64,000 nucleotides of DNA from Mya arenaria (lineage: Eukaryota > Mollusca > Bivalvia > Myida > Myidae), in NCBI RefSeq assembly GCF_026914265.1, contig NC_069124.1, positions 12,417,723 through 12,481,722 of the forward strand. The letters run 5' to 3'. The position numbers were made by a program, and so were the translations under genes. Below, in pieces: positions 14,883-61,100 of this stretch. Positions within the stretch are counted from its first letter, which is position 1; each line of letters opens with the position of its first letter. Below the pieces are notes generated by a model. That model had not been told where the DNA came from and made no database searches. It worked only from the letters and a program-made list of their open reading frames with translations.

Positions 14883-17039
14883 GGCGGGGCAAACGAGTAA
14901 TGCAATAATTCAAAAACAAAAAAATACCGTATTTTTTTCTGATTTTCTTTACCGTTCAATGCTATCAAGTTTGAAGTTTTTAACAGTACACATAATATTT
15001 CTAAAGTTCAAAATATTGGATAGCCTAAGATCATTATGAACATGTTTACGTGTATAAAATGATTTCATTTAAAAATATAATGAAACTCGCGATCGTCGCC
15101 TATTTCTTGTCTATTTAATACTTTGTGTACTCAGTTTATATCAAATACCATAAAAGCAATCGAATTTTCTACTGGTAAATTAAAATTGTTGAAGGTGTTT
15201 AAATTCACAAGAGCAATAGCCAGGTGTATCGGAAAACATTTTAGATACTTATCTTATTAGTTATTTTCGCAATCCATTCACAAAGTAAAATACCTGTGAA
15301 TTTTTATATAGTTCGATATCAGAGTGAATTTATGCTATTTCAATACCAACATAACGTACAATTATTACTGTACAGTGTCCTTTAAATGTGTATTAATAAA
15401 GGAGTTCGTTCCCTTAGTTACTATAATCAATTGTAAACAACAGGTGTGTTCCACACGTTCGCTTGATTAGTAAGTATTTCTTTGTTTTATTTGCTTTTTA
15501 AAACATAGTTTAAGTCACGAATTATGTTTTCACATAATTCGGACACATTATATCTAATTTGTTTCAGTTAATTTCACACGAAATTTACAATGAATATAAT
15601 ACAGGTAAAGGGAAAACAGTGAATTATGTCAGTTTGTCAGTGTATTGGTAATGTCGGTATTGATTCAATGATTAACGAACTATTTCTTTCGAACATGGTT
15701 GTCGCATTATATTATTTATACCATATAAACTTAGAGTTAAGGCAATTGGCTTTTCTATTTTGTAGCTAAAAGGTTTGTGATTTAAAGAGTTTTAACTACT
15801 TAATCTTTTTCTAATTGTTTTACATGTTATCGCATCGTCTTTACTCCTACGTGGCGTGAATATATTATGTGTATGTTGTTATTTGTTTAGTACACAAGTG
15901 GAACGTTCATCATATACTATATGACGTGTTGGGGTCGTGAAACACTAGACAGCAGTATTATTTCCCAAGCTCAAGTGCAATTCGGAAAATTAACTATATA
16001 ATATATAGAAGTTTAGAACACTTATATAGTGGTCTTAAATCTTCGAAGGATGAAAATATGAAGACAAAGTATATTCTTGATTCAACTGGTTCAATTTTCT
16101 TAGCCTCTTCATCGCTCATATTCTTTTCTTTCGCGTCATTCGAGGCCCAGTTCTGGCCCGCTGGTAATTCTAATATACATAAAGAGTATTTTTTCATAAA
16201 AACACCTCATTTGCTGGTGAGAGTAAATGTGTTATTTGTTACCAGCTATTTTAATCATAGATCAACTCACACAGCTATTTTTGTTTTTGTCACAAGATAA
16301 CGACTACGTTTTAGTGTCTACCTAACCATTCTCATGATTAAATTATTGGTCATTTTCACTCCAAACGTTGAAAATAAATTTGAAGATCGATGAAGGATGG
16401 GACAGGAAATGCATTTCTTATTTCATATCCCCGTTACCCGCTTTCTTAGTCTATGCCGGTACCCAGTCCCCTCTCCAGTGTGTCTTTGCAGCCTACGTTT
16501 ATACATGTACTGTTATACAGTTATATTTAGATTAGTGAATATGTAAGTATACAACAGCTAATTTAAACAAAAATATTTGTGGTGGAAAAAGGCCTTGGTT
16601 TTCAATGTAAGTTATTTAATTCTCCCTACGAGGCATTCCATGTACATGTACCAGTACATATGTGAAGCTTTCTGGCGTCATGGTCATTCAGACGTATTAA
16701 TAATTGATAACACACTAAACAAATGCATATAAGCTTTTCCGCAGTGATTTTACACCTTAGCCATTCAATGATTCGACCTATCGAGATAGTTATACATAAC
16801 CTGATAAGTACAGATAAATCACTGTAAGTAGGCATAACAGAAATACCTCGCACGAATTTGAATGTCACATATAGTTATCAAGAGAAACTTAACTAAGTAC
16901 TATTCAAGCTGCATATGTTTTAGTTTCAAACAATGCTCAACTCTGGCATGTTGGACCGGGAACTGACGTGAAGAAAGAATCACACACGTGTTTAGTTAAC
17001 TTAGCTAGTGTTTCAACAGACGTTTTAACAGACAGAAGG

Positions 17040-20000
17040 ATGGCCTTACCATGTGGAGAAGTAAACAGACAACTGCTTCCGGTCAAACTGATGTATTTCT
17101 TCTTTATGGCAGGTTGGTGTTAATTATATTGTTGATTTTAATTTTCTTTACGTCAATAGTCTATATACGTTATCTAAATGCAAATATTTGCATTTTATTG
17201 TCTGAAACTATTTTATATTACTTATCCGAGACGCCCCTCGAACTAAGAAACTTAGGTGTGATCTTTATTTGTCTGTCAAGGTGTAGGTACCCTACTTCCC
17301 TTCATCCCGGTATACATGCGCCAACTGGGACTGTCTGCGGAGGAGACTGGAATAATCTACGGGGTCATGCCCTTCGTCGCCTTCTTCGTGCGGCCCCTTA
17401 TTGGGGTTCTGGCTGACAAGATACAACGCCATAAGGCTGTGCTTATTGTATGTGTGTTACTAACTGGAGTCATGTACGATCTTCTGCTTTTGACACCCGC
17501 GAAGCAAACGCATGATAACTCGGCTCTCGCAATAACGGTCCACATGCAGTGTTCACAAGCCGATTCTTTTATCAGGGATTGTAATTTTGCTGACGATGGT
17601 TGTGAGATGGGTTTAAAACAAGCTCTAGTCGCCAATAATCTTACTGGTATTTCAAGAAAATGTGAGTTTCAGTGTTCTGTGAGTAGGATGTCGATTAAGG
17701 CAGGAAACACGTGCTTCACAGCCGATGTCGGGACGTTGAGTGAGGTAACGTGTGATAGTGTTGTGAATACCGGTCATGACGTCATGTTTCAAAGTGACGT
17801 TAAGGGTATACTCGAAAATGAAATTCAGATGGGAAACAGCTCATATAGCGGCCACACATGCACAGATTATGATCTCAAGAATCTGACTTTCAACGGCACA
17901 AATTACTGGCAACTTTTATGTGAATCCGAAACAGTGTTCAACTGCAACTTACACTGTACACCAGAAATCAGCCAGAAATGTATGGGCACTATCAGTAGTG
18001 ATGACAAACTAAGCGAGACATTTTGGATCTTTTTCGTAATATTTTTGTTCTGCAACATCGTGTTTGCCCCTGTGATCAGTCTTATCGATGCTATAGCATA
18101 CGATATTCTCGGTGAAAAACGCGGATTGTGGGGCCGTCAACGCCTCTGGGGGACTTTAGGCTTCATCTTCTTTGCCGTCGCTTCAACGTTCATCATGGAC
18201 GCTATCAGTCAAAAGAGCAACAACGTTGACTATTCAGTCTCATTCTATATTTTTATGGCTCTAACAATATGTACGTGCGTGGTCGGGTACTTCTTAAAAC
18301 TGTCGGAGAACATCCACTGTGGACAATTTTTGAAAAACATCCTAGGATTGTTAAAATATCCCAAAGTCGTTGTGTTCCTGATAGCTATGGCATGTTACGG
18401 TATTATGAACGGTGTTATCGAAGCATTTCTATTCTGGTATCTCATGATGTTAGGCGCATCCCAAAAAATCCTAGGACTCTGCATTGTATTCCAATGTGGG
18501 CCGGAAATAATCATGCTACAATTCGCCGGCAAAATCATCAAGCGTATCGGTCACATATCTTGTCTGCACATCGCCTGTCTTGGCTACGCCATTCGTTTCT
18601 TCTGCTACTCCATAATCCCGGGACCGTGGTACGTACTTCCGGTTGAGCTGCTACACTGCCTTACGTTCGCACTCATGTACGCCGCCGCCTCCTCCTACGC
18701 CAGCGTGATAACACCAGAAGGGATGTCCGCCACCGTCCAGGGACTTGTCGGCGGGCTACTATTCGGATTTGGTATGATATTCGCTTATAAACCATACACT
18801 ATATTAATGATTTTAAGGGTACGCTCATGTTTTCGTACAATGCATTTTTTGTATGACGAAATAAAGTGTGGCAAATCATTAGGAATGTTAAAACTAAGAT
18901 ACCAAAAGCTGGAAACCTTTAGCAAATGTTGATATATTCTCAAGTATCCTCTTTAAAGACCACACTATCCATTATTCTTTGGCGTTTACCCAGTGCCATT
19001 AAACCGGGTTTATGTTTAAACATTTTGCTACTGAGCTTGTTTCTGTAGTTTTTCGCATAAATATTAACAACAATATTAATCACTTACAGCTTTATTATCA
19101 CGTGATGTAATCAATGAACTGTAAAAATATCTACCTCTTTCATTTTTAAAGTTTCGCTGGCCTTGTGATATCGGGGTCGGTTTTCTTTTTTACTTTACCG
19201 GCGTGGATTCACAAACCACTAAAATGAAAAAAATATTTATACTATAACTGTATTTTTCCGACATTTTCGATATCATAGAGTTTAATAATGATAAAATTAT
19301 TGTTTTTAGATGCATAACCGAGATCCTTTAAATCTGTGAACACTGATTTTACAAAAATAAACATACATGTACAGATCTTGTACGGTGTTCTGTTAATGCA
19401 CCAGTCAATTGTAACCACGGCCTCTCCAGGTCCGGGGAATAGCGGGGACTTTGACTTTCGGTCAAGCCAAGCCCGGGTAAGATTCCCGCCTTGCGGGAAC
19501 GAACTGCTGGTAAAATCCCCGCCAAATGCTCCCGCACCCCAGGCCCATTCCCCGCTATTTTGGCGCGAGGACAAGACCAATGCATTCACCGGCACTGCGC
19601 GGCCACCTGGACGGTAAAAACACGGCCCATTTCCCCAGCTATCCCCGGTGTTCCCACGGATCTGGGGGTTCCGTGGTTTCAATTGACTGTTGCATTATAT
19701 CTTGAAACTAATTCATATAACGGAGCACCTGCCTATCACGTACTTCACGCTCCATATAACAACTTTCAGTCAACGTCTTCTTTTTGTATTTAATTCAAGA
19801 AAATGTAGTCTCATTTGATGTTGATAGTTATTGTTAGTTTTACTATGTTTCAATTTAAGGCAAAGGAATCGGAAGTTTGGTGACGGGGCAGTTGTTTGAC
19901 GCCAGGACGGGCCTCGGGCCGGTGTGGACATTTCGGGTTTATGGTTTTTTTGCCATCGCGGTGCTGCTGGTGTACGGGGCCGTCCATTTCGCCTTTTTCC

Positions 20001-20410
20001 GGGACGCATCTTCCGACAAGGATATTGTGTCAGATGAACAGGCGGGAAAAGGTATGTGATGGAACAACGTAATAAACTGGCTTCTTTACGTTTTGTCTAA
20101 ACTGATTTGCCATCGAGGTCAAATTAAGCAAATATCATGTTTCATTCATATAATTGAAAAGTTTTTCGATTACTAGTAGTTTAAAGCAATTACAGTGTAC
20201 ACATCGTGAACGTTTATAAAATAAAGTAGTTGTTTTCAATAACAATAATTGATTCAGTATCCTTGCATGAACAAGCCTTATTTGAGTTCATAGTGTATTC
20301 TTTTCATAACAGCTATTTCAGAGGAGAGTGCTAAAGGCGTGGCGGAGAAGCTGTTAGGCGCAGAGGAAGGTGCAGTCTTGGAGCAACGGGACCGGACTGA
20401 ACCTTGCTGA
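17040..20410 (+). CDS. MFSD6-like: MFSD6-like transporter, copy A, intact
   Basis: Four exons: 17040-17112, 17281-18771, 19860-20051 and 20322-20410, together 1845 nt or 614 residues. Every intron is phase 1 with GT..AG. The protein starts MALPCGEVNRQLLPVKLMYF, continues LLPFIPVYMRQLGLS and has the MFS loop motif RPLIGVLADKIQRHK. A large Cys-rich extracytosolic loop (roughly residues 97-265, with CSQADSFIRDC and several N-glycosylation sites) follows TM3. Further membrane helices include a stretch ending IDAIAYDILGEKRG and the WGRQRLWGT block. Exon three carries the last helix (GFFAIAVLLVYGAVHFAFF), and exon four a hydrophilic tail ending RTEPC. The layout matches MFS_1-like/MFSD6 proteins. 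The substrate is unknown. Intron 2 carries a Harbinger-like MITE. Copies B and D are close paralogues. Confidence 0.93.
19397..19694. mobile_element. Harbinger-like MITE, copy 3
   Basis: The ends are TGCACCAGTCAATTGTAACC and a closing CAATTGACTGTTGCA. The flanking trinucleotides are TAA and TTA, a slightly mismatched TWA duplication. It has the same GC-rich interior as the other two copies (GTCCGGGGAATAGCGGGGAC). It sits in intron 2 of copy A and is absent from that intron in B, C and D, so it arrived after the gene duplications or in one lineage. Confidence 0.75.
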
Positions 20411-20660
20411 GGTAGGGGGATGTTGGCGAATTGATAGGGTCGGGGGTTTGGCCAGTCTTGGAGCTGCTGAACCGGACTGAACCCCGCTGAGGTAGGCGGA
20501 TGTTGGCGAATTGGTAGGGTCGGGGGTTTGGTCAGCTTGGAGCTGTGGGACCTGACTGAGCCCTGCTGAGGTAGGGGGATGTTGGCGAATTAGAAGAGTC
20601 GGAGGTTTGCCCAGTCTTGGAGCTGCTGGACCGGACTGAGCCCTGCTGAGATTTAGGGGG
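20376..20660 (+). repeat. 80-bp minisatellite overlapping the stop codon of copy A
   Basis: About three and a half units of roughly 80 bp. Each contains GTCTTGGAGCTGCTGGACCG, then GACTGAGCCCTGCTGAGGTA, then GGGGGATGTTGGCGAATT. The first unit overlaps the last exon: its coding part spells V-L-E-x-x-D-R-T-E-P-C-stop. Later units repeat the coding end and stop codon in what should be the 3' UTR. Confidence 0.85.
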
Positions 20661-22419
20661 AGTTGGTAGGGACGAGGTTGGGCCGGAGCTGCATTACGTA
20701 ACTGAACCCTGCTGGGGCGGGACAAGGTGCGGAGCAAAGAACTGACAAGAGTGGTGATGAAACTCGTGGCCGAATAGAATTATGCCGAGGACCATGCCGG
20801 CTCTTTCTGAATGTTTGTGTTAATGCATATCAATGTGAAGCCAAAATACGACAATATGATCTCAAGATATAACCTCAGTTTTACACATTCCTCCGATCAT
20901 TCCTTTACTATGTTATTTTTTAAAAGGTTTTAGTGAGACCAAAAATGAACATTACCGACAAGTATTTCAGGTTTTATAGTGTTCATGTTCCGATTTGTGT
21001 TTAAAAGCCATGTTGTTGTTTATTGTTGATCCACGACTTATATAGAGTTGATGAATTTCTAAATGAGCTGTCCATGATGGGGTTTTTTTCTGACATTTTT
21101 TTATAATTTTAATTTGCTCAATTGTCATTTTTCCTATATTTGTAAAACTGTGTAAATATTGTGTTATTTTCGGCCGTTGATAATAATATCTTATAATTTT
21201 AAATTGCCTTCTTATAATATTATAGCATTTTTTGGATTTTCTCTAATTTGGTTATATATTTGCATATGGAGACTTCAACATTTGATTCAACCAAGGGATT
21301 CATCTTTAACGTGTTTACATTTAGTTTGTGTTTAATAAGTATAAAATTATAATTGTTTATTATGATGATTATCTTTTGTTCTATGACTTATTTTTGGTTC
21401 ATCATTTTCAGATTTTTAACTGAACTGTGCATGGTGGGCATTAATGACGTTTTATTTATAATTCTATTTTATTGATATATATTTTCTGTATTTATATGAG
21501 CGTTTATACATTAAGGTTTTCTTTGTTATGTGGGGTCCTTGATTATATACAACCGTACATTTGTAAAAATTTTTTTAATGTTTTTGCGTTTTGATTTGAT
21601 TTTCATTCGGAATATCTGAATAAATCCTTACATTATAATTGTTCTTATTGTTTACAGTTTTACATCTAGGAAAATGAGTAAAATGAATAGGAAATTTGAT
21701 TTTATTTCCAAACGGTAAATTGAGTGATAAATTAATTATATACAATTATAAAGCATGATAAAATAAATATGCATAATTATACGAAACATGAAAAATATAA
21801 TGGTAAGTACCGAAGTTGCATATATTTAAAACCACCTTCACCTTGGTTGAAAGACAGAGGTTGAAAGACAGAGGGGTTTTTTTAAGTTCCGGTGGCTGGG
21901 GACAGTATTCAATAGCATTCTCATTCTTATCCCTAGATAATAGATATGCCTAAGTCATTCAGACTATTGGCCAGTATTTCATAGATTAGTTCAATCGAAA
22001 CTCCTAAACGTAAGTTAGATACGTCATGGTTATTGATAAAGGTACAAGGGGCTGTATTCAATTACCACCTTAGACCTCATTTTATTTTAAGATTATAATC
22101 CAAGCGTGATTGGACTGTAAAAATAACTAGTCAGTTGACTGAATGGCTTTGCTAATGCGTGTCTAAACAGACAGTGATAAAAACGATATTGCATACGGCG
22201 CTGGAATGTCCTTCTATGTCCGTGGTCAAGGTTATACTTCTTACAAGAACGTTTAAAGTATTAACATGGGATATACATCTCCAATGATAAATAATATGAC
22301 TTGCCTTACTAACTGTTTGATTCTTGTTGAATTCTATCAGACGGCAAGTCAGATCTTCGGCGGGGCGGTCGAGCAATGATATCAATGGCATTTAAAAATA
22401 GTTTTTACCGTATCACAAC

Positions 22420-25609: not shown

Positions 25610-25965
25610 TTAAAGCTGCACTCTCACAGATTGAACGTTTTGACAATTTTTTTTATTTTTGTCTTGGAACGAGCCAAGTTTTGTCAAAATCCATGGACAC
25701 CAGTTATATAAGACTGCTGACAAAAAAAAATAGATCGCAGATTTTTAAATTTAAGTTCAAAAAATGATGTTTTATGCATTTTTCTTAAACCGTTAGTAAC
25801 CGTTTAAGCCATAAACATTAATTTTCGAACGGAAATATGAAACTCTACGATCTGTTTTTTTTTTGTCTTATATCATTCGTTTACAGATAATTACGCAAAG
25901 ATAGGCTCTTTCCAAGACAAAAAATAAAAAAAAGTTGTAAAAATGGTAAATCTGTGCAGCTTTAA
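25610..25965. mobile_element. long palindromic MITE, copy 3
   Basis: Starts TTAAAGCTGCACTCTCACAG and ends GTGCAGCTTTAA. TTAA is present on both edges. Both halves contain the GTCTTGGAACGAGCCAA or inverse motif. It lies about 120 bp before the transcribed start region of copy B and could lie in its promoter. Confidence 0.8.
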
Positions 25966-26080
25966 ATTAAACATTCACGTTTAATACATTTTAACTTTTT
26001 CCCTTCCCCACTCACTTTTGTACTGTTGAAGGTCATTAACTTTAACTATCGTATCAAGTGACGTTGTTTCAGGCAGAAAG

Positions 26081-29000
26081 ATGGCCTCTCCATGTGGAGA
26101 AGTAAACAGACAGCTGCTTCCGGTCAAACTCGTGTATTTCTTCTTTATGGCAGGTTGGTGTATATTATTATTTTTATTTTACATTTATTCTGAAGGACTG
26201 TATTTGTTATTGAAATGAATGAATTTAATATCGTTATGAAAAGTCGTCCATGCATAAACTTACAGAGCTGAAATAGATATTTAGATTTTGATGTGAAGTA
26301 GATTATAATTATGATAGAATTAATAATATGATTATATAATTAAACACCATTTATTCTGTTTTATAATAATCATCTCACACGCTCATCCCCTCCAGCTTAG
26401 TAAAAGTAAATGTTATCTTTATGTGCCTGTCAAGGTGTGGGTGCCCTACTTCCCTTCATCACGGTATACATGCGCCAACTGGGACTGTCTGCGAAGGAGA
26501 CTGGAATCATCTACGGGGTCATGCCCTTCGTCGCCTTCTTCGTGCGGCCCCTTATTGGGGTTCTGGCTGACAAGATACAACGCCATAAGGCTGTGCTTAT
26601 CGTCTGTGTGTTACTAACTGGAGTCCTGTACGATCTTCTGCTTTTGACACCCGCGAAGCAAACGCATGATAATTCGGCTCTCGCAATAACGGTCCACATT
26701 CAGTGTTCACAAGCTGATTCTTTTATCAGGGATTGTAATGTCGCTAACGGTGGTTGTGAGATGGGTTTAAAACAAGCTCTAGTCGCCAATAATCTTACTG
26801 GTATTTCAAGAAAATGTGAGTTTCAGTGTTCTGTGAGCAGGAACTCGATTAAGGCAGGCAACACGTGCTTTACAGACGATGTTGGGACGTTGAGTGAGGT
26901 TAAGTGTGGTAGTGTTGTGAATACCGGTGATGACGTCATGTTTCAAAGTGACGTTAAAACTTTACTCGCAAATGAAATTCAGGTGAGAAACAGCTCATAT
27001 AGCGGCAACACATGCACAGAATATGATCTCAAGAATGTAACTTTCAACGGCACAAATTACTGGCAACTTCTATGTGCATCCGAAACTGTGTTCAACTGCA
27101 AATTACACTGTACGCCAGAAATCAGCCAGAAATGTATGAGCACTATCAGTAGTGATGACGAACTAAGCGAGACATTTTGGATCTTTTTCGTAATATTTTT
27201 GTCGTGCAACATAGTGTTTTCCCCTGTGTTCAGTCTAATCGATGCGATTGCATATGACATTCTTGGTGAAAAGCGCGGCTCGTGGGGCCGTCAACGCCTC
27301 TGGGGGACTGTTGGCTATATAACCTTTGCCGTCGCTTCAACTTTCATCATGGACGCTATCAGTAAAAAGAGCAACGTTGACTATTCAGTCTCATTCTATA
27401 TTTTTCTGGCCTTAAATATATGTACGTGCGTGGTCGGATACTTCTTAAAGCTATCGGAGAACATCCACTGTGGACAATTATTCAAAAACATCCTAGGATT
27501 GCTAAAATATCCCAAAGTCGTTGTGTTCCTGATAGCTATGGCATGTTACGGTATCATGAACGGTGTTATCGAAGCGTTTCTATTCTGGTATCTCATAATG
27601 TTAGGCGCTTCTCAAAAAATCCTAGGACTCTGCGTAGTATTCCAATGTGTGCCGGAAATAATCATGCTGCTATTTGCCGGCAAAATCATCAAGCGTATCG
27701 GCCACATGTCTTGTCTGCACATCGCCTGTCTTGGCTACGCCATCCGTTTCTTCTGCTACTCCATAATCCCGGGGCCGTGGTACGTACTTCCGGTTGAGCT
27801 TCTACACTGCCTGACGTTCTCCCTCATGTACGCCGCCGCCTCCTCCTACGCCAGCGTGATAACACCAGAAGGGATGTCCGCCACCGTCCAGGGACTTGTC
27901 GGCGGGCTACACTTCGGATTTGGTATGATGTTATTATTGATGTTTGTTTATGCACCATACATTATCATTATGTTTTTAGTCTGTTCACTCTTTGAGTTTA
28001 CAAAATCGAAAAGGCATGAACAGACCTGGAACAGATGTTTATTTTTATTTTAAAACGTATTCACATTACGGAGTAGCTGTCTGTTGCTTACTTCAAGCTC
28101 CATAAACAACTTTCAGTCAACGTTTTCTTTTTGTATTAAATTTAAGAAGATGTTATCACTTTTGATGATGATAGTTATTCATTTTACTGTTTTAATTGTA
28201 GGCAAGGGTATCGGAAGTTTGGTTACGGGACAATTGTTTGACGCCAGGACGGGCCTCGGGCCTGTGTGGACATTCCGGGTTTATGGGTTTTTCGCCATCG
28301 CGGTCCTGCTGGTGTACGGGGCCGTCCATTTCGCCTTCTTCCGGGACGCCACTTCCGACAAGGATATTGCGTCAGACAGACAGGCTGGAGAAGGTACGTA
28401 AAGAAACAAAGTACTAAAATGGCTCCTTTACTTTACGCTTTTCTAAACAAAGTTATCATCCACTTCATATTATGCATATAAGATGCTTCATTTTTAGCTC
28501 TACTGGCCAAAGGCCAGAAGAGCTTATGCGATGGTAATGTGTACGTAGTATGTGCCACCGTGCGTTCGTGCGTCCGTGCGTCTGTAAACAATTGCTTGTG
28601 AACACGATACAGTCTTCAGTTTTGATTGTATCTCGATGAAACTTGTACAGTATCTAGATATCCATTAGAGCTGGGTTCCTTTCGAAAACCAGCCAGATCC
28701 GCCCATGAATGCCTAGATTATGGGCCATGAAAGTTTTAAAGAAATGCTTCCTATTTTTAGCCAGGTCTGCATGAGCGAATTCTATTTTTAGCCAAGTTTA
28801 CATGTACATGTAAATTCAAGTCTAGAGTTAAGGGAGACAATTTGCAAGTGTAGGATTTTTAGAGACAATTTGCTTTTTGCTTCTGCAGTTGATTTTGTGA
28901 ATTACTCTGCCTTGTTCTTGTTGAAAGCCCAAAGGCCATTTTTTAGCTTTAAGTTCTGTAGTTTGTGCATTCATCTTAACAAAATTGGTTGTGAATGTTT

Positions 29001-29726
29001 AAGTTATGCACCTGGTGTCATTACTGGCCACACCCAGGGTTCACAGGTTTGGTAAACATAAATCTGGAATGGTTTGAAAATCTTTTTGTGTGTTCGTGCA
29101 TCCATCTCAGCACAATTGATTGTGAATGTTTGTTCAAATTGATAAATGTTGTCCTAGGATGCCCTTGACTTTGACCTTTTGACCAACTTTTTTTAACTTT
29201 TAAAACTACAGAAAGTTTTACTATGAGAACAGTTTTGAAAGCATTTTTTTGTCAGATGACTTTTACTTGGCACATATTAAAATAGTTCATGCAACTAATC
29301 TGCTTACAGTACTTTCTGGGCTCAGATGTTGAACGTGCTACGTTTTCAGGTAACCCAAACACAAAACATAAACTATATGTCTGTTGCCTTTTACCCATAC
29401 ATACATGCTCTGGATTGAGATGACCACAAAAGCCATGCCAGTAGAGCATAGGCCCTTTTGGGCCTCTTGTGTTAATTAAAATATTGTTTTGAGTTTTCTG
29501 GAGGAAAGAGTGCAAAGATCGTTAACGTTAATACAATAAGGTAGTTTTCTTCAATATTATTAATTCACTCAGTATTCTTATATGGACAAGCCCTATTTGA
29601 GCTCATAGTGCATTACTTTGATAACTGTTCATTTTAGAGGAGAGTTCGAAAGACGCGGCGGAGAAGCTGTTAGGCGCAGGGGACGGAGCAGCCGTGGAGC
29701 TGCAGGACAGGACTGAGCCCTGCTGA
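26081..29726 (+). CDS. MFSD6-like: MFSD6-like transporter, copy B, intact
   Basis: Exons 26081-26153, 26435-27922, 28202-28393 and 29638-29726 total 1842 nt, or 613 residues. Junction positions and phases are identical to copy A, with one Asn codon missing in the SKKSNVDY segment. It starts MASPCGEVNRQLLPVKLVYF and ends LQDRTEPC. By eye about nine residues in ten of exon two match copy A. Changes cluster in the extracytosolic loop (for example NVANGGCEMG against NFADDGCEMG), while transmembrane parts and the MFS motif RPLIGVLADKIQRHK are unchanged. Intron 3 is enlarged by a 1-kb repeat (28495-29470). The ATG context and the preceding pyrimidine-rich DNA match copies A and D, so the same start is chosen. 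The substrate is unknown. Confidence 0.93.
28495..29470 (+). mobile_element. 1-kb non-coding repeat element in copy B intron 3
   Basis: Begins TAGCTCTACTGGCCAAAGGC with a local hairpin (CTGGCCAAAGGCCAG) and ends near GCCAGTAGAGCATAGGCCCT then TTTGGGCCTCTTGT, so CTCTACTGGC appears inverted at the two ends. Near the left end are GTGCGTTCGTGCGTCCGTGC repeats. No transposase-like frame is present. Copies A and D lack it, so it inserted after duplication. The family is not certain; a non-autonomous element is likely. Confidence 0.6.
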
Positions 29727-31985: not shown

Positions 31986-33249
31986 AATTTAATGTTTTTA
32001 CATCAATAAATAATAACTTATTCAATGGCATTGTTAAACATACAGTTTGAAACACACATATTGTTTAAAACATGTAGTAACATGGTTACGGACCTTTGGT
32101 TTATATGTGCGTGCCATGGTGAACCACCCGGTATTCCGGATCAGTAACAACTTTTGCATATTATTTGTTCAAATACATTGTTATGAATAATATCTTTAAA
32201 ATTAGTGAAAGAAAAATAATTCCTAATTTGAACCGAACTGTCGGGCAATTGTAAATTGTCGCGACTTTGCGAATATAAAATTATGTTATAAAGGTAAATA
32301 AAATTGATGTTTGTACGAAATGGAAAAGCACCAAAACACGAACTTTTATGAAACTGTTCGTTTGAAAATAAAATAAAAGTTGATAGTTTGATTATTTGAA
32401 TTACTTAGGCATGTTTGCATAGTACAGAACTTTTTAGGGATGACCTCGTTAAGGTTTTTATTAATAATGATAAAAAACAGTCTGCACATTTTGGTACTTA
32501 TTTTGTTTGATTGGTTGTATATTATAAAGAGCATTTTAAAGGAAGAAAGGGAAATGAGATTTGTATTTGAATATTGCAGAAAACGGCACCCTTTACTGTC
32601 AATCAGAGATACTTTGCATTGGCGCAGAGGACATAGCGATCTATGGAAAATGGACGACTTTACCAACTCGTGTAGGTCGCCAAAATAACAGATTCTTCTA
32701 TTCTACAAAACTAGAGAAAATATAGTTTACATTCACAGTCAAATCTGCTCTACGTGATATGGAGCGGCAGTTAAAAGGAAAATTCCTCGATTGACGTTTG
32801 CCCACAATTTTCTAATATGTGCGAAAACCAGTTTATGTTGGAGTAATAAACCGTCAATGTATTCGATGGAAAATGGCGAGGAGTTCTTAGACGAATGCAT
32901 CCGTAGAAATAACACGCCTTTCAATTAACACGTGACAAAAACTGCCAAAATCAAGTTTTGAAATGGCCATGGTGAGACAAACGTTCTCCCCTATGCTTTT
33001 TATCGTAGATGTTTTTTATAATGAGTTAAACGCAGGTATGCCCAGTTCCCTGAATACCATTATATAGCCTCCTCAAGAACGCAACACAATCAATACTTTT
33101 CAATGGTATTAGTGAAGCTCTTGGGAAACACATACAGAAGTAACTTTCAACACTAGCAAAGTTTGTCTAGATAACAACATGCCTGACAACAAAAGAAGCT
33201 TACAGACGTGGTCGACTGGCCGTGGAAAAACTGAGATCAAACCCTCCTT

Positions 33250-35365
33250 CTGCGAGCAGGAACTCGATTAAGGCAGGCAGCACGTGCTTTACAACCTATG
33301 TTGGGACGTTGAGTGAGGTAACGTGTGATCGTGTTGTGAATACCGGTGATGACGTCATGTTTCAAAGCGACGTTAAGGGTATACTCGAAAATGAAATTCC
33401 GATGGGAAACAGCTCACATAGAAGCCACGAATGCACAGTTTATAATCTCAAGAATTTGACTTTCAACGGCACAAATTACTGACAACTTCTATGTGAATCC
33501 GAAACTGTGTTCAACTGCAATTTGCTTTGTACGCCAGAAATCAGCCAGAAATGTATGAGCACTCTCAGTGGTGATGATGAACTAGACAAAACATTTTGGA
33601 TCTTTTTGTAATATTTTTGTTCTGTAACATAGCGAATTCCCCTGTGATAAATCTTATCGACGCTATAGCATACGATATTCTTGGTGAAAAGCGCGGCTCC
33701 CGGGGTCGTCAACGCCTCTGGGGGACTGGGGGCTACATTACCTTTGCCGTCGCTTCTACCTTCATCATGGACGCTATCAGTCAAACAAGCAACAACGTTG
33801 ACTATTCAGTCTCATTCTACATTTTCCTGGCTATATCAGTATGTTCTTGCGTCGTCGGCTACTTCTTAAAGCTATCGGGCAACGTCCACTGCGGACAATT
33901 ATTCAAAAACATCCTAGGATTGCTAAAATATCCCAAAGTCGTTGTGTTCCTGATAGCTATCATATGTTACGGTATGATGAACGGTGTTATCGAAGCGTTT
34001 CTCTTCTGGTATCTCATAATGTTAGGCGCTTCGCAAAATATCCTAGGACTCTGCTTAGTATTCCAATGTGTGCCGGAAATAATCATGCTACAATTCGCCG
34101 GCAAAATCATCAAGCGTATCGGTCACATATCGTGTCTGCACATCGCCTGTCTTTGCTACGCCATCCGTTTCTTCTGTTACTCCGCCATCCCGGGGCCGTG
34201 GTATGTACTTCCGGTTTAGTTGCTACATGGCCTGCCATTCGGACTCATGTATGCCGCCTCCTCCTCCTTCGCCAGCGAGATCACAACGGAAGGAATGTCC
34301 GCCACCGTTCAAGGACTCGTCGGCGGTCTTTCCTTCGGATTCGGTATAGTCTTTAAGTTGATGTTTGTTTATACACCATACCTATTCAATTTGCTTTAAA
34401 TAAAAAAAAAAATATATTCTTTTTGATTTAACAAACTTGAACATGCTAAAGATATTAAGCACTGATTAATATTTATATTTTAAATATATTTCTTAGACCT
34501 AAGCTCATGCCTATCAATTTGCCTATCAAGTCATTCACGTATAAATGAATTGTTTCGCCCGTAAAACAAGATAAAATTAACGTTTTACTTTTTGTTAAAA
34601 ATTAAAAAGTATCTTGTTTCATTTGATGTTGATAGTTATGCATTTTACTGCATGTTTCAAGGCAAGGGTATCGGCACTTTGGTGACGGGGCAGTTGTTTG
34701 GCGCCAGGACGGGCCTCGGGCCTGTGTGGACATTCAGAGTGTTTGGATTTTTCGCCATCGCGGTCCTGCTACTGTACGGTGCTGTCGATTTCGCCTTCTT
34801 TCGTGACGCCACTTCCGACAGGGAGATTGTGTTAGAAGTACACACTGGAAAAGGTACGTACAGAAGCAAAAATAAAATGGCTCCTTTCATTTACGCGTTT
34901 CTATACTACTCATGTCGGAAAATAACTCAATGGGCTAACGTTTCTTGTTAAGATATACCCGACATTAAATTAAGATTAAGGTTCTTGTTTCTTGTATCTT
35001 GTAATTTGTTATCGCTTTCATACTCAGTATTTAACATGTTTCATTCTTTCATTAGAAATGATGGTTTGCGTAAACAAAAGTTACCACAGTGTATACATCG
35101 TTTAAACGTTTAAAACTAAGTAGTTGTCTTCAACAGCAATTATTTAGTCGGTATACTTACATGAAAAAGCCATATTTGAGTTCATAGTGTAATCCTTTGA
35201 TAACTGTCTATTTAAGTGGATAGCGCTAAAGTCGTGGTGGAGAAGCAGCTAGGCGCATTGGACGGAACAGCCGTTGATATACGGGATCGGATTGATGTTT
35301 GTATATCATATAGGGCGGGGGCTTGGCCAGTCTTGGAGTTGCTGGACGGGACTAAGCTCTGCTGA
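33250..35365 (+). pseudogene. MFSD6-like copy C, 5'-truncated and broken
   Basis: Homology begins abruptly inside exon two (the AGCAGGAACTCGATTAAGGC point, about 140 codons in) and follows A, B and D to the exon end at 34343. Exon one and the first part of exon two are absent. A Trp codon has become TGA near 33480, one base is lost near 33608, and a Glu codon has become TAG near 34218. Exon three (34662-34853) is intact with both splice sites. Exon four (about 35215-35365) lost the GAG at its start, and its reading runs on into the minisatellite before stopping. The shared upstream block joins directly to mid-exon, so the 5' end was removed by a deletion. It is unlikely to make a transporter. 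Confidence 0.88.
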
Positions 35366-36130
35366 GATAGGGAATGTTTGTAATTGCTAGGGGCGGGGGC
35401 CTACCTAGTCTTGGAGCTGCTAGACGGGACTGAGCCCTGCTGTGATAGGGGGATATTTGTAAATAATGAGTGGCGGGGGCTTGGCTAGTCATTGAGCTAC
35501 TGGACGGGACTGAGCGCAGCAGAGGTATGCGGGTGTTTGTAAATCGCTAGGGGCGGGGACTTAACCAATCTTTGAGACGCTGGACGAGACGGAGTCTTGC
35601 TGAGATACGGGGATGTTTGTAGATCGCTTGGGGTTAAGAGCTACTGAACGAGACTTTGCTATGGAAGGGGGATGTTTATTATTTGTTAGGGGCAGATACG
35701 GGTAAGTCTTGGTGCTGTTGGACGGGACTGAGTCCTGCTGAGATAGAGGGATGTTTGTGAATCGTTAGGGGCTGGGGTTTGGTCAGTCTTGGAGCTGCTT
35801 GGAGGGACAGATTTCTGCTGAGATAAGGGATGTTTGTGACTCGTTAGAGGTGGGAGCTTGGCCAGTCTTGGAGCTGCTTGACGGGACTGAGCCGTGCTTT
35901 GATAGGGTGTTGTTTGTGAATCGTAGGTGTCGGGGGATTGCCCAATCTTGGAAGTGCTTGACGGGACAGATCCCTGCTAAGATAGGGTTTGTTTGTGAAT
36001 TGTTAGGGTGGGGCTTTAGCCAGTGTCGAACCTGCTAGACGGGACCTAGCCCTGCTGAAATAGGGGATGTTTGTGAATCGTTTGGGGCGGCTGTTTAGCA
36101 AATCTTTGAGCTACGGCATCGAAATGAGCC
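35260..36130 (+). repeat. expanded terminal-exon minisatellite behind copy C
   Basis: Ten to eleven diverged units of 66 to 84 bp, each with CTTGGAGCTGCT.GACGGGAC, TGAGCCCTGCTGAGATAG and GATGTTTGTGAATCGTTAGG. The same unit overlaps the stop codon of copies A and B. Here it has spread to nearly 900 bp, with unit-to-unit differences that imply age. Confidence 0.85.
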
Positions 36131-40180: not shown

Positions 40181-40189
40181 GTGTTTTGT

Positions 40190-43170: not shown

Positions 43171-45772
43171 ATGGCTTTACCATGTGGAGAAGTTAACCGA
43201 CAGTTGTTTCCCGTCAAACTGATGTACTTCTTCTTTTTTGCGGGTAAAAAGCATTTCATTTTTCATTTTTCAATTATTCTTATAGTCTTTATATGTAATA
43301 AAAGTTAATGGATTGAGTGATATTGTGAGAGGTATACTCGAGATAAACTGAGAGTGCTTCAAGCAGATATTTGCATTTTAAAGTATATAAAACTCACGCT
43401 GTTTTTAATCATGACTTATCAGACATGGCCACTAGCTTAGAAAAACAAGTTAATTATTTATTTTGTTCTGTACAGGACAGGGTGCCATTCTTCCCTTCAT
43501 CCCGGTATACATGCGTCAACTGGGACTGTCCGCGACAGAGACGGGTATCATCTACGGGGTCATGCCCTTCGTCGCCTTCTTCGTGCGGCCCCTTATTGGG
43601 GTTCTTTCTGACAAGATACAGAACCATAAGGCTGTGCTTATCGTATGTGTGTTACTAACTGGAGTATTGTATAATCTTCTACTTTTGACGCCAACAAAGC
43701 AAACGCACGACAATTCTGCCCTTGCAATAACGGTCCATATGCAGTGTTCACATGATGATTCTTTTATCAGGGATTGCATGGTCGCTCATGGTGGTTGTGA
43801 GATTGGTTTAAAACAAGCTCTAGATGCCACTAATCTTACTGAAATTTCGAAAACATGTGTGTTTCAGTGTTCTGTAGAAAGAGACTCGATAAAGGCAGGC
43901 AGCACGTGCTTTACAGCCGATATTGGGACGTTGAGTGGCGTAACTTGTGGAAGTGTTTTGAATATAGGTGATGACTTCATGTTTCAAAGTGACGTTAAGG
44001 GTATACTCGCAAATGAAATTCAGATGGGAAATAGCTCGTATAGAAGCCACGCATGCACAGATTATGATCTCAAGAATCTGACATTTAACGGCACAAATTA
44101 CTGGCAACTTCTATGTGAATCCGAAACTCTGTTTAACTGCAAATTACACTGTACGCCAGAAATCAGCCAGAAATGTATGAGCACTATTGTCAGTGATGAC
44201 AAACTAAGCGAGACATTTTGGATCTTTTTTATTATATATTTGTTTTGCAGCATAGCGATATCCCCTGTGACAAATCTTATCGACGCTATAGCGTACGATA
44301 TTCTAAGTGATAAACGCAGATCATGGGGCCGTCAACGCCTCTGGGGGACAATAGGCTATTTCATATTTGCCGTTGCTTCAACGTTTGTTATGGACGCTAT
44401 CAGCCAAAACACCAACAGCGTTGACTATTCAGTTTCATTCTACATTTTCCTGGCCCTATTAGTAAGTTCGTGCGTAGTCGGATACTTCTTAAAGCTATCG
44501 GAAAACATCCACTGTGGACAATTATTCAAAAACATCCTAGGGTTGTTAAAATATCCCAAAGTCGTTGTGTTCCTGATAGCTATGGCATGTTACGGTATCA
44601 TGAACGGTGTTATCGAAGCGTTTCTATTCTGGTATCTCATAATGTTAGGCGCTTCTCAAAAAATCCTAGGACTCTGCTTAGTATTCCAATGTGTGCCGGA
44701 AATAATCATGCTGCAATTCGCCGGCAAAATAATCAAGCGTATCGGTCACATGTCTTGTCTGCACATCGCCTGTTTTGGCTACGCCATCCGTTTCTTCTGC
44801 TACTCCATAATCCCGGGGCCGTGGTACGTACTTCCGGTTGAGCTACTACACTGCCTGACGTGTGCACTCATGTACGCCGCCGCCTCCTCCTTCGTCAGCG
44901 AGATCTCACCGGAAGGGATGTCCGCCACCGCCCAGGGACTCGTCGGCGGGCTATACTTCGGATTCGGTATGATGTTATTATAGGTGTTTATTGATACGAC
45001 GTACACCTATAATGTTGAGTCATTATGCTTTTAAACTGTATTCTCATTGAACATGCCTATGCATATCAAGCACGGATTTATGTTTATATTTTGAGCAACT
45101 GCCTATCTATTACTCACGAATGACGAATCTGTTTCGCCCCTAATTAAAACTTTTAGTTTTATTTTGAAGTAAATGTGGTCTCATTTGATGTCAATAGTTA
45201 TAGTTAATTTTACTATGTTTCAATTTTAGGCAAGGGTATCGGAAGTTTGGTGACGGGGCAGTTGTTTGACGCCGGAACGGGCCTTGGGCCGGTGTTGACA
45301 TTCCGGATTTATGGGGGTTTTGCCATCACTGTCCTGCTGGTGTACGGGGCCGTCCATTTCGCCTTCTTCCGGGTCGCCACTTCCGACAAGGAGACTGCGT
45401 CATACAGACAGGCTGGAAAAGGTACGTAAAGAAACAAAGTACTCAATTGGCTCATTTACTTGACGCGTTTCAAAACAAAGTTATCATCCACTTTATATTA
45501 TGCATCTAACATGTTCCATTCTTATAAGTGAAGTGATAGTTTTAGTATGATATAGCAACAACAGTGAATACATCGTAAACGTTAATAAAATAAATTTATT
45601 TGCCTTAATAACAATAAACTATTCAGTATTCTTACAACAACAAGTCCTATTTGAGTTCAAAGTGTTTTTTTTTGTTGTTAAAGAGAAGAGTGCTAAAGGC
45701 GCAGCGGAGAAGCTATTATGCGCAGGGGACGGAGCAGCCGTAGAGATGCGGGATCGGACTAAGCCCTGCTGA
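43171..45772 (+). CDS. MFSD6-like: MFSD6-like transporter, copy D, intact
   Basis: Exons 43171-43243, 43476-44966, 45230-45421 and 45684-45772 total 1845 nt, or 614 residues. All introns are phase 1, in the same positions as copies A and B. It starts MALPCGEVNRQLFPVKLMYF and ends MRDRTKPC. It is the most divergent of the intact copies: GQGAILPFIP replaces GVGTLLPFIP, LSDKIQNHKAV replaces LADKIQRHKAV, and the loop reads CSHDDSFIRDCMVAHGGCEI. Exon three has Gly for Phe (YGGFAI) and Val for Asp (FRVATS). The Cys residues of the extracytosolic loop are conserved. The exon-four acceptor (GTTAAAG) is weaker than in A and B. The tail minisatellite is not expanded here. Confidence 0.92.
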
Positions 45773-49645: not shown

Positions 49646-49778
49646 AATATCTTAGAAAAAGAATGACGGCGATTAATTTGTAAACAAGGTCATGGAACGT
49701 GTATGAAAGTATTATAAACATAACATGTGCCTATTTATTGTTTGTTTTGAATATCAAAAATAATCTAAGGTCAGGAAC

Positions 49779-54536: not shown

Positions 54537-55329
54537 CTTGTTAAACATTAATTGGAAAATGTTGACCAGCTTGCGTTGGAATTGAGAGGACTTACTGAAC
54601 TTTAACACTATAATTAAATATAAAATATACTTTTGCTCTGAATACGGTTATATTTTTAAACGTTTTTGCTCGACTCTTGCATGAGGCTTGAAACTGGAGT
54701 GAAGAAAGAATCGAACACGGATTGAGTTAATTTAACTACAATATATTGTATAAATTGATGTTGTAACAGACGGAAGGATGGCCTTACCATGTGGAGAAGT
54801 GAACTGACAGCTGCTTCCGGTCAATCTCATGTATTTCTTCTGTATGGCAGGTTGTAAATACTTATCGTATGTGTGTTACTAACTGGAGTATGGTATGATC
54901 ATTTTCTTTTGATGTCCGCGAAGTAAACGCATGGGAACTCGGTTCTCGCAATAAAGGTCCACATGCAGTTTTCAAAAAGATACTATTTTATTAGGGATTG
55001 TAATGTCGCTAACGGTGGTTGTGAGATGTTTTTAAAACAAGCTCTAGTCACCAATAATCTTACTGGTATTTCAAGACAATGGGAGTTATGTGAGCAGGAA
55101 CTCGATTAAGGTAGGCAGCATGTGCTTTACAGCCGATGTTGGGACGTTGATTGAGGTAACGTGTGGTCGTGTTGTGGAAACCAGTGATGACGTCATGTTT
55201 CAAAGTGACGTTAAGGGTATATTCGAAACGAAATTCAGGTGGGAAACACCTCATATAGTGGCCACACATGCACAGATTATGATTTCAAGAATGGTACTTT
55301 CAACGGCACAAATAACTTCTATATGAATT

Positions 55330-55945
55330 TAATGATGTCCTCTACTAGTCATGACCAACTGGAATATCAAGTATGTAGTTCCTGAGTTCAAGTGATCTTT
55401 AATTATTCAACGGGAAAACGTTTTTTCACCTCAAGGTCACCTTTAACCTACTGATTCCAAAATCAAAAGGGGTCGTCTACTAGTCCTGACAAACTGACAT
55501 ACCAAGTATGAAGATCCTGGGTGCAAGTGTTGTAAAGTGTTTGAGCAAAATCCGTTGTTTACCTAAGGTCGCCGCGACCTTGACATTTGACGTCACCAAT
55601 ATATCGTATTTCACCTGAAGGTCACCGCGGCTTTGACCTTCTGAAATCAAGATCAATAGGGGCCATGTACTTGTCACGACAAGCTTGCATATTAAGCATT
55701 AAGTTCCAAGCGGATCTTAAGATATTGAGCGGAAATCGTTGTTCAACTCAATGTCACCGTGAACTTGACCTTTGACCTGTTGATGTCAAAATCAATTAAC
55801 ATCATCTACTGGTCATGACCATCCTGCATACTGAGTATCATGTTCCTTGGTCTTGGTGTTCTCAATTGAATGGGCGGAAACGAAGTGTGACTTACCGACT
55901 GACCGACCGACAGACCGACTGACTGCTCATTTCAATGTATTTACA
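55330..55945 (+). repeat. repeat with GACCTTGACC motifs, copy 2
   Basis: Matches 31302-31985 unit for unit: CACCTCAAGGTCACC, GTCGCCGCGACCTTGACATT, GAACTTGACCTTTGACCTGT and terminal GACTGACCGACCGACAG. It lies inside the composite copy E. Together with 55950-57620 it forms the same block that lies upstream of copy C. Confidence 0.75.
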
Positions 55946-55949
55946 TCAA

Positions 55950-57620
55950 AAATTAATTTAATGGCATTATAAAGCATACAGTTCAAAACACCCATATTGT
56001 TAAAACGTGTAGTTACAAGACCATGTTCATGTAAACATGGTCACGGATCTTTGGTTTATATGTGCGTGCCATGGTGAACCACTCGGTATTTCGGATCAGT
56101 AAAAACCTTTTCGCATATAATTTGTTCATGAACATTGCTATGAACTATATTTTTTAAAATGAGTGAAAGACAAGTTATTCCTTACTTGAACCGAACTAAT
56201 TTGTAACAAAATGTTGAGGCTTTTATTAATATCTACAAGTTTGACTAAATGTGACGATGTTTGGTTGCAGTTGAAGCTTACGTCATCGACACGTATTGAC
56301 AACTATTCACTTCACATTTATATAATGTATATGTAAGAGTTCATTTTTGCGATCTGCAGAAAATGGATTGAGCGCAGCATATTTGGTGGTAGCACGAAGT
56401 TGACCCGCTAGCACCGCCCTCTTTGTAGTCACGGGGTATTTTGGCGCTAAAGTTAAACCACCAAGACGGTAGTTTCATTAACGGAGTGTCGGGCAATGGT
56501 AAATTGTCTCGACTTTGTGAATATATTTTATAAAAGCAAAAAAAAGATTGATGTTTGTACAGAAATTGTAAAGCACCGACACACGAACGTTTATGATACT
56601 GTTCGTTTAAAAGAATGTTGATATTTAAATTATTATAATTTCTTAGGTATGTCTGCATAGTACATAACCTCACTGGGATGGACTCGTTAATGGGCATTTT
56701 TCATTATAATCAACAACAGTTTGCACACACATTTTAGTACTGAATTTGTTTGACTGGTTGTAAATTATGAAGAGCATTTTAAAGGAAGAAATTTCTATTT
56801 GAATATTGCCGAATAAATATTGAATTGTGCACTGAGTAGATGTCAGTACGATTTTACAGCTGATTACAGATCTATTTCCGAGATCGGGTTCATGAGGTAA
56901 GCTTCAACTGCCTCCAGAAAACGGCACCCTTAACTGTCAATCATAGATACTTCGAGCAGGCGCAGAGGGCATAGCCATCTATAGGAAATAGACGACTTGA
57001 CCAAATCATGTTTATCGCCAAAATAATCTGTACAAAAATAGAGATAAATATAGTTTATATTCGTAGTCAAATCTGCTCTGCATGATATGGAGCGGCAGTT
57101 AAAATGATAATTCCTCGATTGACGTTGGCCCACAATATTCAACTGTGTGCGAACACCAATTTATGTTAGAGTAATAAACCGTCAATGTATTCGATGGAAA
57201 ATGGCGAGGAGTTCTTAGACGAATGCATCCGTAGAAATGACACGCACTCACCTTTTCCCGCCTTTCAATTATCGTGACAACAACTGTCACAATCAAATTT
57301 TGATATTGCCATATCGAGACAAAGGTTCTCCCCTATGCTTTTTATCGTAGATGTTTTTATCTACAATGGGTTAAACGCAGGTATGCCCAGTTCCCTGAAT
57401 ACCATTATATAACCTCCTAAAGAAAACAACAAAATCAATACATTTCAATGGTATTATTTTGGAGAAGCACTTGGGAAACTGATTGACGCATACAGCATGA
57501 ACTTACAACATGAGCAAAGTTTGTCTAGGTAACAACATGCCTGACAAAATTGGAGCTTACAGACGTGGTCGACTGGCCGAGGAAAAACTGAGATAAAACC
57601 CTCCTTCTGGGGAAAACTCT
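55950..57620 (+). repeat. shared upstream block, second copy
   Basis: Matches 32000-33245: TTTATATGTGCGTGCCATGG, TGATATGGAGCGGCAGTTAA, AATAAACCGTCAATGTATTC and TTACAGACGTGGTCGACTGG. Both copies stop at the same CCCTCCTTCTG point and are then joined to different interior points of MFSD6-like exon two. Confidence 0.75.
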
Positions 57621-58158
57621 GAACACCAGATATCGTGCCACATCACCAATAAGCTCCTTATCAAAGAAGTATTGGAAACATATAATTTTAATGATTCATG
57701 TATACATACTATATCAAGTTGTACAAATGCATATGCATCGATATGTTCTTTTAAAACAAACGAAAACAAATTGATCATTCATATGATGATATTGCATAGT
57801 AACAACGAAGCGTTTCTATTCTGGTATCTCATAATGTTAGGCGCTTCGCAAAAAATCCTAGGACTCTACATAGTATTCCAATGTGTGCCGGAAATAATCG
57901 TGCTGCAATTCGCTGGCAAAATCATCAAACGTATCGGCCACATGTCTTGTCTGCACATCGCCTGTCTTTGCTACGCTATCTGTTTCTTCTGTTACTCCGC
58001 CATCCCAGGGCCGTGGTACATACTCCCGGTTGAGTTGATACAAGGCCTGACATTCGGACTCATGTACGCCGCCGCCTCCTCCTACGCCAGCGAGATCACA
58101 ACGGCAGGGATGTCCGCCACCGTTCAAGGACTCGTTGGCGGTCTTTGCTCCGGATTCG

Positions 58159-61100
58159 GTATGGTCTTTATAAGACAATGTTTATTTATACACCATACCT
58201 TATCATACTTTGGACGGGACTTAGCCCTGCTGAAATAGATGGTGTTTGTGAATCGTTAGGGGCGGGTGCTTGGACAGTCTTGGAGCTGAGGCATCGAAAT
58301 GAGCCAAGCTGAGATTTTAGGAATGGGTTGGTAAACAGTTGTGCCGGAACAGCATTACGTGACTGATCCTTGGGGCCGAGGACTGAGCGAAAAACTGAAA
58401 AAAGCATTGATGGAATGGATGGAGCAATGCTTAGGTCCATGCCGATTCATATTTAATACTGGTGTTAGTGTAAATGGCATTTGAATGTTCTGCCAAAATC
58501 ACTATAAGGATACCTCAGTTTTACAGTCAAGTTCTTCAAGCTGTATTGTCTATATGCAACAGTTTATGTTTGAAAACCATGTAATTGTTTATCGTTGATC
58601 AAACACATATATGGAATATTCTAACTGATCTGTCCAAGCTGTGTTTTTATGGCATTTTTTTTAATATTCCCCATTTTCAAAAAAGTCGGTATTTGCTTGT
58701 CTGTGTAAATAGTGTGGTTGACTTGTTATTTTCGGCCGTTGATTAAATACAACGCTATCTTTGTAAATTGGCGCATTGGCGCAAAACGCTACTTGACTAG
58801 GAATGCATCTAATTTTACATTGTTTACAAATATAAAGGCAGTGGGATTGAAATTATTTGATTTTGTTGTTTGTCTGTTTAAAATGTACTGTTTTTTTACT
58901 CCTGAAAATATCGAGTTTCAAAGGGAAAATAAGAGTCCAGCGCGCGTACTGGCTACGACAAAGTAGGGTAAAATTGCCAGGGTTAATACTTAAGCGAATA
59001 ATAATAGTAGTTTACTACATCTTCCAAAATATGTATTTCGGTAATATAATATTCGAATATTCGATCGAAAGAATTACGAAATATTCGAATATCAATTTTG
59101 CCATTCGTTTGCATCGATAGTTATTACATAGAAACACGATACTGAACAATGTGATTCTATTTTTATTCCAATTATGACAATTAAAACAATTTATTACAAG
59201 TTATATATATTATAAAATAAACAATTACTGACTGAGCATAATAGCAAATACGTGCACAAACAAAATAGAGTTCTTTCTTTGCTCGTGGTCAGGTTACAAT
59301 AGCGGGTTCATTTGGCGATTCTGTGAGCTCATAAATTACCTCAACTTCGAGTGAGACAAACATCATGTCAAATTCAACTCCATAACATTTCTTACGGGTA
59401 ATCTATCGAGTTATTTCCTTTGAAATTAAGTGATAATATCGTTCATGAAAGTGTCAAGTTATTTCATAATTCGCTGTGTTAAGGCATAGTCACAGCAAAC
59501 CAACAATGATTTTATGGAACGACACGACAGAACATTTTGGCAAATCGGGGATCATCGATGGTCGTCACAAGACAGTCCTGCGAATGTTTTTGGCAACGTG
59601 GCATCGACGTGTCGTTATTAGTCAGATTTGGACATGCACCTTTTTGTTCTACGATTTTGTGTAGTCTCTATGTCTTGTTTTTGCCGTGGAAGCGACTATC
59701 GTGCGATAAATATTTTGTCGTGGGTAGCAGAATATTTCTTTTTTTCTTTTTAAATAGTCAAACAATCTACAACTGTCGCACGATTGTATCACAACTGTCA
59801 CAGGGCAGTCGCGAGAGATTTGCAAAATTGTCTCACTAACAGTAAATTTCGTAAGAGGCTTGAACAACATCTATATGTAGGTCGTGCGTAGGTCTTGCGT
59901 TAGTCTCTTAATATAATTTCGTTTTTAAGGGGTATACACCCCAGGCAAATGAAAGATTTGAAATAAAAACTGTTTATCGTCGCTGAAAGAGTTTTAATTT
60001 CTAGAGCAATTTACAGGCAACATACCAAGTCGTGTTTTATAGTCACTTGATGAACGCGCAGGCGTCCGTGGGTGAACAAAGACTGACTTGCGACACAAGA
60101 ACGACATAACCACGACATTTTTTTTCTGCCATTGCCAAACCATCGTCAATGTTTCGTAGCCCTTGTAACCACCCGCAAATGATTTCGGGCATGCTACAAG
60201 ACCTTGCCATGACATACAGTTTATGGGTCTGCCTCGTCAATATTTCGTACGATCCGTTGAAACCCGTAACTTATTACTTAAAGTGTCTTATTCTGCATTC
60301 ATTTTTACCACACCAATTTAATGTTGTGTTTGACGAATTATGGCTGAGAAAAATTAAAGCGAGTGGGTGAAATAAAAATAAAATTCCAAATCAAGTTTTT
60401 CCTTTTGATTTAGAAAAAGATTTAGTGACGGCGAAGCCACATTCTAACAGAGTGAAGATTATTTTTAAATAAAACCTCATACCGTAATAGTTTATTTTTC
60501 CCAACATTTCGTAAGACGTGTACAGATTTACAAACAGTTTGTGATGTGTTAAGTCGGATGTCAACCTCGTCCATCATCCTTTCTGCGTAGCAAAGACCTA
60601 TGCACGACTCTCGATGGCACATGAATCCCGGGCACAGGTCTTTCTTTCCGAGAAACCTTTTGCAGAAAGACCTCTTACCCGATCGATGTTTTGTATGTAT
60701 TATAACATTTAATACATTGCATTTCTTGTTCAATTGATTAAATTGATCTGCTCTTTGATGAAAAAATGATTGAATAAGTGATTTGATTTTTTTTAAAACA
60801 AATACTACCACAAACAATTAATACAAGTAAAATAATCCATTTCGATGACAAAGTTCAATGTATACATTCGGGAAAACTGTGTCCATGCTTCCAAAATAAA
60901 TATTCAAAAACTTACATTAAATTTTGTTTGATACAGACACATGTTTTGCAGATTTGGATGAGCATGCTTAAAAACTACGCAATACACAAGACAATACACG
61001 TACGTCCATGAAACAGCAATACAATTCCGTCTGATTACAGAAAGCACGAAAAGTCCTTTCATTGTTCCATGGACTTAATCATGTGGGAGAAAATGTATCA

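Follow-up and report, generated by a model that had tools for sequence, protein, structure and literature searches.

What does a row of neighbouring transporter genes provide: a diversified means of recognising something outside the cell, or a display of ordinary gene birth and death? We addressed this question in a 64,000-nt stretch of the Mya arenaria genome (contig NC_069124.1, C3:12417723-12481722; hereafter the window), which carries a tandem array of MFS_1_like (MFSD6-like) transporter genes of the major facilitator superfamily (MFS). Feature coordinates are window positions on the plus strand unless a contig such as C3 is named, and the genome searched comprised 1.216 Gb in 18 contigs. 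The reading we favour, at a probability of about 0.75, is that the array has been shaped by birth and death together with interlocus gene conversion, and that a second version of the region elsewhere in the scaffold is the other haplotype.

Six units were visible in the window: the intact copies A, B and D, and the decayed copies C, E1 and E2. Copy A (17040..20410, 614 amino acids (aa)) consists of exons 17040-17112, 17281-18771, 19860-20051 and 20322-20410; copy B (26081..29726, 613 aa) of exons 26081-26153, 26435-27922, 28202-28393 and 29638-29726; and copy D (43171..45772, 614 aa) of exons 43171-43243, 43476-44966, 45230-45421 and 45684-45772. In all three, the introns are bordered by a GT donor and an AG acceptor, and the lengths of the four coding exons (73, 1491 or in B 1488, 192 and 89 bases) place every intron in phase 1. 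The translations run uninterrupted from ATG to stop, with exon 2 encoding ~497 residues and exon 4 encoding 29. These gene models confirmed the first-pass annotation in its description of three intact copies with common intron positions and phase 1 throughout. A disruption of D by a TAA was considered and rejected, as this triplet precedes exon 2, which starts at 43476, while the match of the region to the family profile PF12832 starts at 43451. Exon-2 identity ranged from 80.6 to 93.3% over 243-1491 bases in 14 pairs of copies (the fifteenth pair, E1-E2, has no overlap), which, together with a best PF12832 E-value of 2.5e-71 in the genome search, excluded chance likeness. The introns of A, B and D differ in length and are 73-81% identical in all three pairs over 141-250 aligned bases, gaps left out.

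The decayed units lie next to the intact ones, in agreement with the earlier view of a tandem expansion in which birth and death can both be seen. Copy C (33248..35365) is a pseudogene that starts at the position corresponding to A 17675 and lacks exon 1 and the first ~390 bases of exon 2. It retains exon 2 from the loop onward (33249-34345, with one frame change and two in-frame stops), part of exon 3 (34661-34852) and an exon 4-like frame (35217-35365). Fragment E1 (54778..55328) comprises exon 1 with an in-frame stop, followed by a disrupted part of exon 2 (54861-55317, matching A 17442-17907), and fragment E2 (57806..58160) represents only the 3′ end of exon 2. The sequence between them (55338..57609) matches the 5′ flank of C (31397-33252) in three pieces, indicating that it is the 5′ flank of a further unit and that E2 is separate from E1. 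Thus, of the three intact and two broken copies originally proposed, the array itself, the intactness of A, B and D and the breakage of C stood, but "E" proved to be two fragments, giving six units. The array would have been made by duplication of units now spaced ~6-13 kb apart, and it appears to evolve by birth and death, with three intact genes beside three decaying fragments or pseudogenes.

The open reading frames (ORFs) containing exon 2 of A, B and D matched PF12832 at 240.9, 247.8 and 244.4 bits (gathering cut-off 25.2; E-values 2.4e-73 to 3e-71), covering profile positions 14-351, 15-352 and 10-352 of 373; in the same search, to which five proteins were given, the exon-3 ORF of C and one 5′ ORF had no match. 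With helix borders placed by hand from hydrophobic stretches, a large extracytosolic loop is predicted between transmembrane helices 3 and 4 (TM3-TM4) of copy A, at aa 96-268 (17493..18011, worked out from the exon table). The presence of this long loop agrees with MFSD6; it spans 173 residues with 12 Cys and four N-x-S/T sequons, all of them conserved across A, B and D. Exon 1 encodes ~24 residues and already reaches TM1, and the exceptionally long N-terminus of human MFSD6, a 791-aa protein, is absent, as compared with ~614 aa and a short N-terminus in the array. Going by what is known of the family, the proteins would be 12-helix secondary transporters with a disulfide-rich, glycosylated TM3-TM4 ectodomain. 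AlphaFold models of exon 2 with A, B and D had a mean predicted local distance difference test score of 31.4 and were discarded. NCBIfam models gave matches only below their cut-offs (transporter models far below), Rfam gave no matches on the window at gathering cut-offs, and no MFSD6 entry appeared among sequence matches to solved structures (PDB). The best remote matches of the latter kind were bacterial MFS proteins, namely NorA (E=8e-5 with protein A alone), YegT (E=0.0003) and LacY (E=0.001, both with the profile), too distant and partial for a substrate to be transferred to the array proteins. Judged by sequence, "MFSD6-like" seems a fair label for the array genes.

The family is not confined to the array. 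At least 18 PF12832 matches were found in the genome (18 of 62 candidates scored), which among those scored were distributed as five in the window array, five in a second array, one each on C2 and C7, and three each on C5 and C12; hence the first-pass description of a normally single-copy family is not borne out here for PF12832. In aligned pieces, the identity of protein A to the genes on C2 and C7 was 25-38%, with 25-30% for the C2 locus, an open frame of 687 aa (L006). We take the C2 locus, which matches PF12832 as human MFSD6L does, for the likelier MFSD6L counterpart, and the C7 gene (L008) presumably resembles MFSD6 more than the array genes do. Three weaker matches ~9.4 kb apart on the minus strand of C12 (49706367-49725931) perhaps mark a second tandem cluster of the family, and similar matches 169 kb apart at C5:19021096 and C5:19189943 perhaps another doubled region.

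The second array lies ~280 kb downstream, on the same scaffold and in the same orientation. Sequence comparison identified it as a collinear version of the window array (C3:12701723-12761722), mostly 97-99% identical: a 23.8-kb block aligns at 98.9%, a 17.3-kb block at 98.1% and shorter pieces at 91.9-96.7%. The order is the same in both versions at points sampled between 12421150 and 12580700, a span of ~159 kb, with the stretches between these points covered in part. Some 30 kb farther down than the array, C3:12790001-12794000 matches 12505385-12509362 at 97.4% over ~4 kb, and C3:12580000-12580700 has a 701/701 copy at 12864877, an offset of 284,877; the latter sequence is also a dispersed repeat, whose next best copy is 94% identical. 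About 10 kb after position 12580700 a 99-N gap (C3:12590847-12590945) separates the versions. Before the gap stands a 359-bp satellite of identical copies. Soon after the gap, the scaffold resumes with a match to the sequence that lies upstream of the window, at 97-98.8% for the most part and with short pieces down to 91%. This upstream region is present there as two tandem copies ~37 kb apart (C3:12590971-12619170 and 12628026-12656017, 99.0% identical over 16 kb); ahead of the second array, the end of yet another copy is present.

The arrangement of these sequences is most simply, and most likely, explained by a haplotype pair, with the second version representing the other haplotype, retained in the same scaffold. 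The main competing account would be a genuine, recent segmental duplication on a large scale, with about twice as many real copies, and it is unlikely but not negligibly so. It draws on the location of both versions within one scaffold in the same orientation, on deletions that differ between E1 and its counterpart E1′, and on the greater number of upstream regions after the gap, several copies of which are unlike the prediction for a plain haplotype pair; the number of these copies may differ between the two versions. Against it stand the gap between the versions, the restart of the sequence after the gap with the region upstream of the window, and collinear pieces with identities of 91.9% to 100%, a spread such as two haplotypes of a variable species would show. 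The PF12832 relatives on C2 and C7 occupy one place each in the genome, so the doubling does not look genome-wide. With the second version probably haplotypic, raw copy counts taken from the assembly would be inflated.

The two versions differ in which copies are broken. In the second version A′ and B′ have uninterrupted coding sequences, and C′ has the stops of C. D′ is frameshifted by a 2-bp gap in the part of exon 2 that encodes the loop, and its exon 3 has a gap of 6 bases that preserves the frame. E1′ consists of part of exon 1 joined to approximately the last 30 codons of exon 2, plus exons 3 and 4, unlike E1. The other haplotype would thus carry a frameshifted D and a differently deleted E region.

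Silent divergence among the copies was patchy. Between A and B, synonymous divergence (dS) reached 0.337 in exons 1, 3 and 4 but 0.167 in exon 2 (p=0.014), although the introns of all three pairs have diverged about equally. Between B and D, dS was 0.113 at aa 358-458 vs 0.358 in the remaining exon 2 (p=0.0015), a tract chosen after window identities had been inspected; for the same tract A-D gave p=0.065, and A-B showed no drop (p=0.45). Exon 2 of D and D′ is identical at 584/593 positions in columns 1-595, at 213/250 in columns 651-900 and at 582/591 after this tract, the borders of which were chosen from the data. Furthermore, sites that differ between the versions and show both states in other copies exceeded expectation in A (6/24, expected 2.3, p=0.02), B (5/17, expected 1.7, p=0.02) and D (11/56, expected 4.1, p=0.002), with no such excess in C (0/9), a pattern in the live copies consistent with exchange between them. 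We infer that interlocus gene conversion, acting mainly in exon 2, underlies the patchiness.

The divergence between the two versions had a similar focus. In aligned blocks (window 4954-45827; the figures omit non-aligning stretches), substitutions were found at 94/4467 exon-2 sites of A, B and D vs 284/33948 non-coding sites (p=6e-13), making exon 2 differ 2.5 times more than the non-coding DNA of the 41-kb core; with A and B only, the counts were 41/2979 and 122/20152 (p=1.8e-5). By copy, exon 2 carried 24/1491 substitutions in A (1.61%), 17/1488 in B (1.14%) and 53/1488 in D (56 with another aligner), and the dead C remnant had 9/1098 (0.82%).

Several results weigh against conversion focused on exon 2. 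No contrast in dS between exon 2 and the other exons was seen in A-D (p=0.35) or B-D (p=0.89), and longest-run tests for conversion were weak, with uncorrected p-values of 0.016-0.026 in three of the six pairs and 0.20-0.27 in the other three. The p-values for the tracts are too small, since the tracts were picked post hoc and sites within a tract are non-independent. The D-D′ tract did not originate from A, B or C, to which D′ is 87-89% identical there. Finally, non-coding divergence between the versions is uneven, at 0.61% in the A-B part (window 4.9-28.7 kb) and 1.17% in the C-D part (28.7-45.8 kb), and outside the core it rises to 2.40% above it (21/876) and to 3.08% below it (111/3602). 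The excess seen in exon 2 of A and B thus holds only against the near surroundings, because non-coding DNA outside the core diverges as much or more.

The first-pass annotation had proposed that changes are concentrated in the large loop, with helices almost unchanged, pointing to diversification of what is recognised outside the cell. In pairwise NG86 (Nei-Gojobori 1986) estimates, which are averages over each pair, the ratio of nonsynonymous divergence (dN) to dS was 0.24 for A-B, 0.24 for A-D and 0.27 for B-D overall. A separate estimate for loop and rest gave 0.43, 0.22 and 0.33 in the loop and 0.20, 0.25 and 0.25 elsewhere, with overlapping bootstrap ranges for the two parts in each pair. 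The intact copies therefore appear to be under purifying selection as a whole; dN/dS exceeded 1 in no region tested, the loop values lay between 0.22 and 0.56 in seven pairwise comparisons, and mean dN stayed below mean dS in all 14 windows of 60 codons.

Diversifying selection on the loop, giving rise to a repertoire of recognition specificities, nevertheless found some backing in tests that were many and uncorrected. Variable residues among A, B and D were more frequent in the loop than in the helices (44/173 vs 44/318, Fisher p=0.002), with loop dN above helix dN at p=0.04 (A-B), 0.06 (A-D), 0.01 (B-D) and 0.03 (A-A′). Relative to the rest of the protein, loop dN was higher in B-D (p=0.04), in A-A′ (p=0.02) and in the three pooled pairs between versions (odds ratio 2.1, p=0.009; p=0.048 without D-D′). 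The loop ratio of nonsynonymous to synonymous changes was also raised in A-B (p=0.02), in A′-B′ (p=0.005) and in the pooled pairs (p=0.048), where it fell to p=0.26 without D-D′. The concentration in the loop thus survived as an excess over the helices, but the other non-helix parts proved equally variable (37/123), which we read as weaker constraint outside the helices generally. Part of the sameness of the helices stems from tracts of low silent divergence, which fit gene conversion; with the B-D tract left out, loop and rest dN did not differ significantly (p 0.40-1.00). A-D showed no loop excess over the rest in dN/dS, and every loop Cys and sequon is kept. A weak loop effect is possible, loop variation being only mildly raised, and we regard selection for a recognition repertoire as improbable, given that dN/dS stays below 1 in every region tested. 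Most likely, the copies would supply dosage or modest subfunction differences.

Conversion aimed at the ectodomain-coding exon 2 could also be an engine of allelic diversity, forming a small system for a surface transporter resembling the major histocompatibility complex. Such a system would keep exon 2 variable between haplotypes and old paralogues alike, driven perhaps by a toxin or pathogen exploiting the loop; we consider it very improbable. Least tenable of all, to the point of being practically refuted, is misassembly of a single locus as the source of the copies within the window, since between copies 7-19% of the exon-2 positions and 19-27% of the intron positions that align are different, as are intron lengths and breakages. 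The concern over artefacts applies instead to the second array.

In tandem families that evolve by birth and death with gene conversion, intact genes stand among pseudogenes and homogenised tracts, as they do here. The present array, set apart from them by nothing except the family concerned, is an ordinary example of gene birth and death, well displayed, and shows in a small space how a transporter family gains genes, loses them and probably evolves in concert. No expansion of MFSD6 was told of in the literature titles or abstract beginnings searched, which is no proof of absence, and PMC7736800 and PMC11985324 contained nothing on one; what had looked like an expansion of MFSD6 in vent snails concerned BTBD6 instead (PMC7736800). 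In C. elegans, the orphan transporter mfsd-6 has been linked to axon regrowth and to the activity of the motor circuit (PMC6281318). PMC12452593 describes human MFSD6 as a receptor of enterovirus D68, with its second extracellular domain (K153-D280) taking part in binding. This domain may be the counterpart of the TM3-TM4 loop described here.

Repeats and mobile elements were also observed in and around the array. An ~80-bp tandem repeat at copy A (20373..20666), the unit of which takes in the 3′ end of exon 4 together with its stop, has a corresponding repeat at copy C (35294..36112), both found by sequence comparison, so that a coding end has turned into a minisatellite. Self-inverted elements of ~250-360 bp, alike in either orientation and resembling miniature inverted-repeat transposable elements or foldback elements, were found at window positions 10551-10905, 14238-14581, 25607-25968 and 30547-30793. 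A 42-bp satellite with long repetitive open frames extends over ~3.5 kb at C3:12487639-12491120. About 40 kb before the block of the second array, a retroelement open frame contains reverse transcriptase and aspartyl protease domains (L028:8005-9999), and a ~343-bp repeat at L013:3828-4170 has at least 38 relatives, 79-81% identical, on many contigs.

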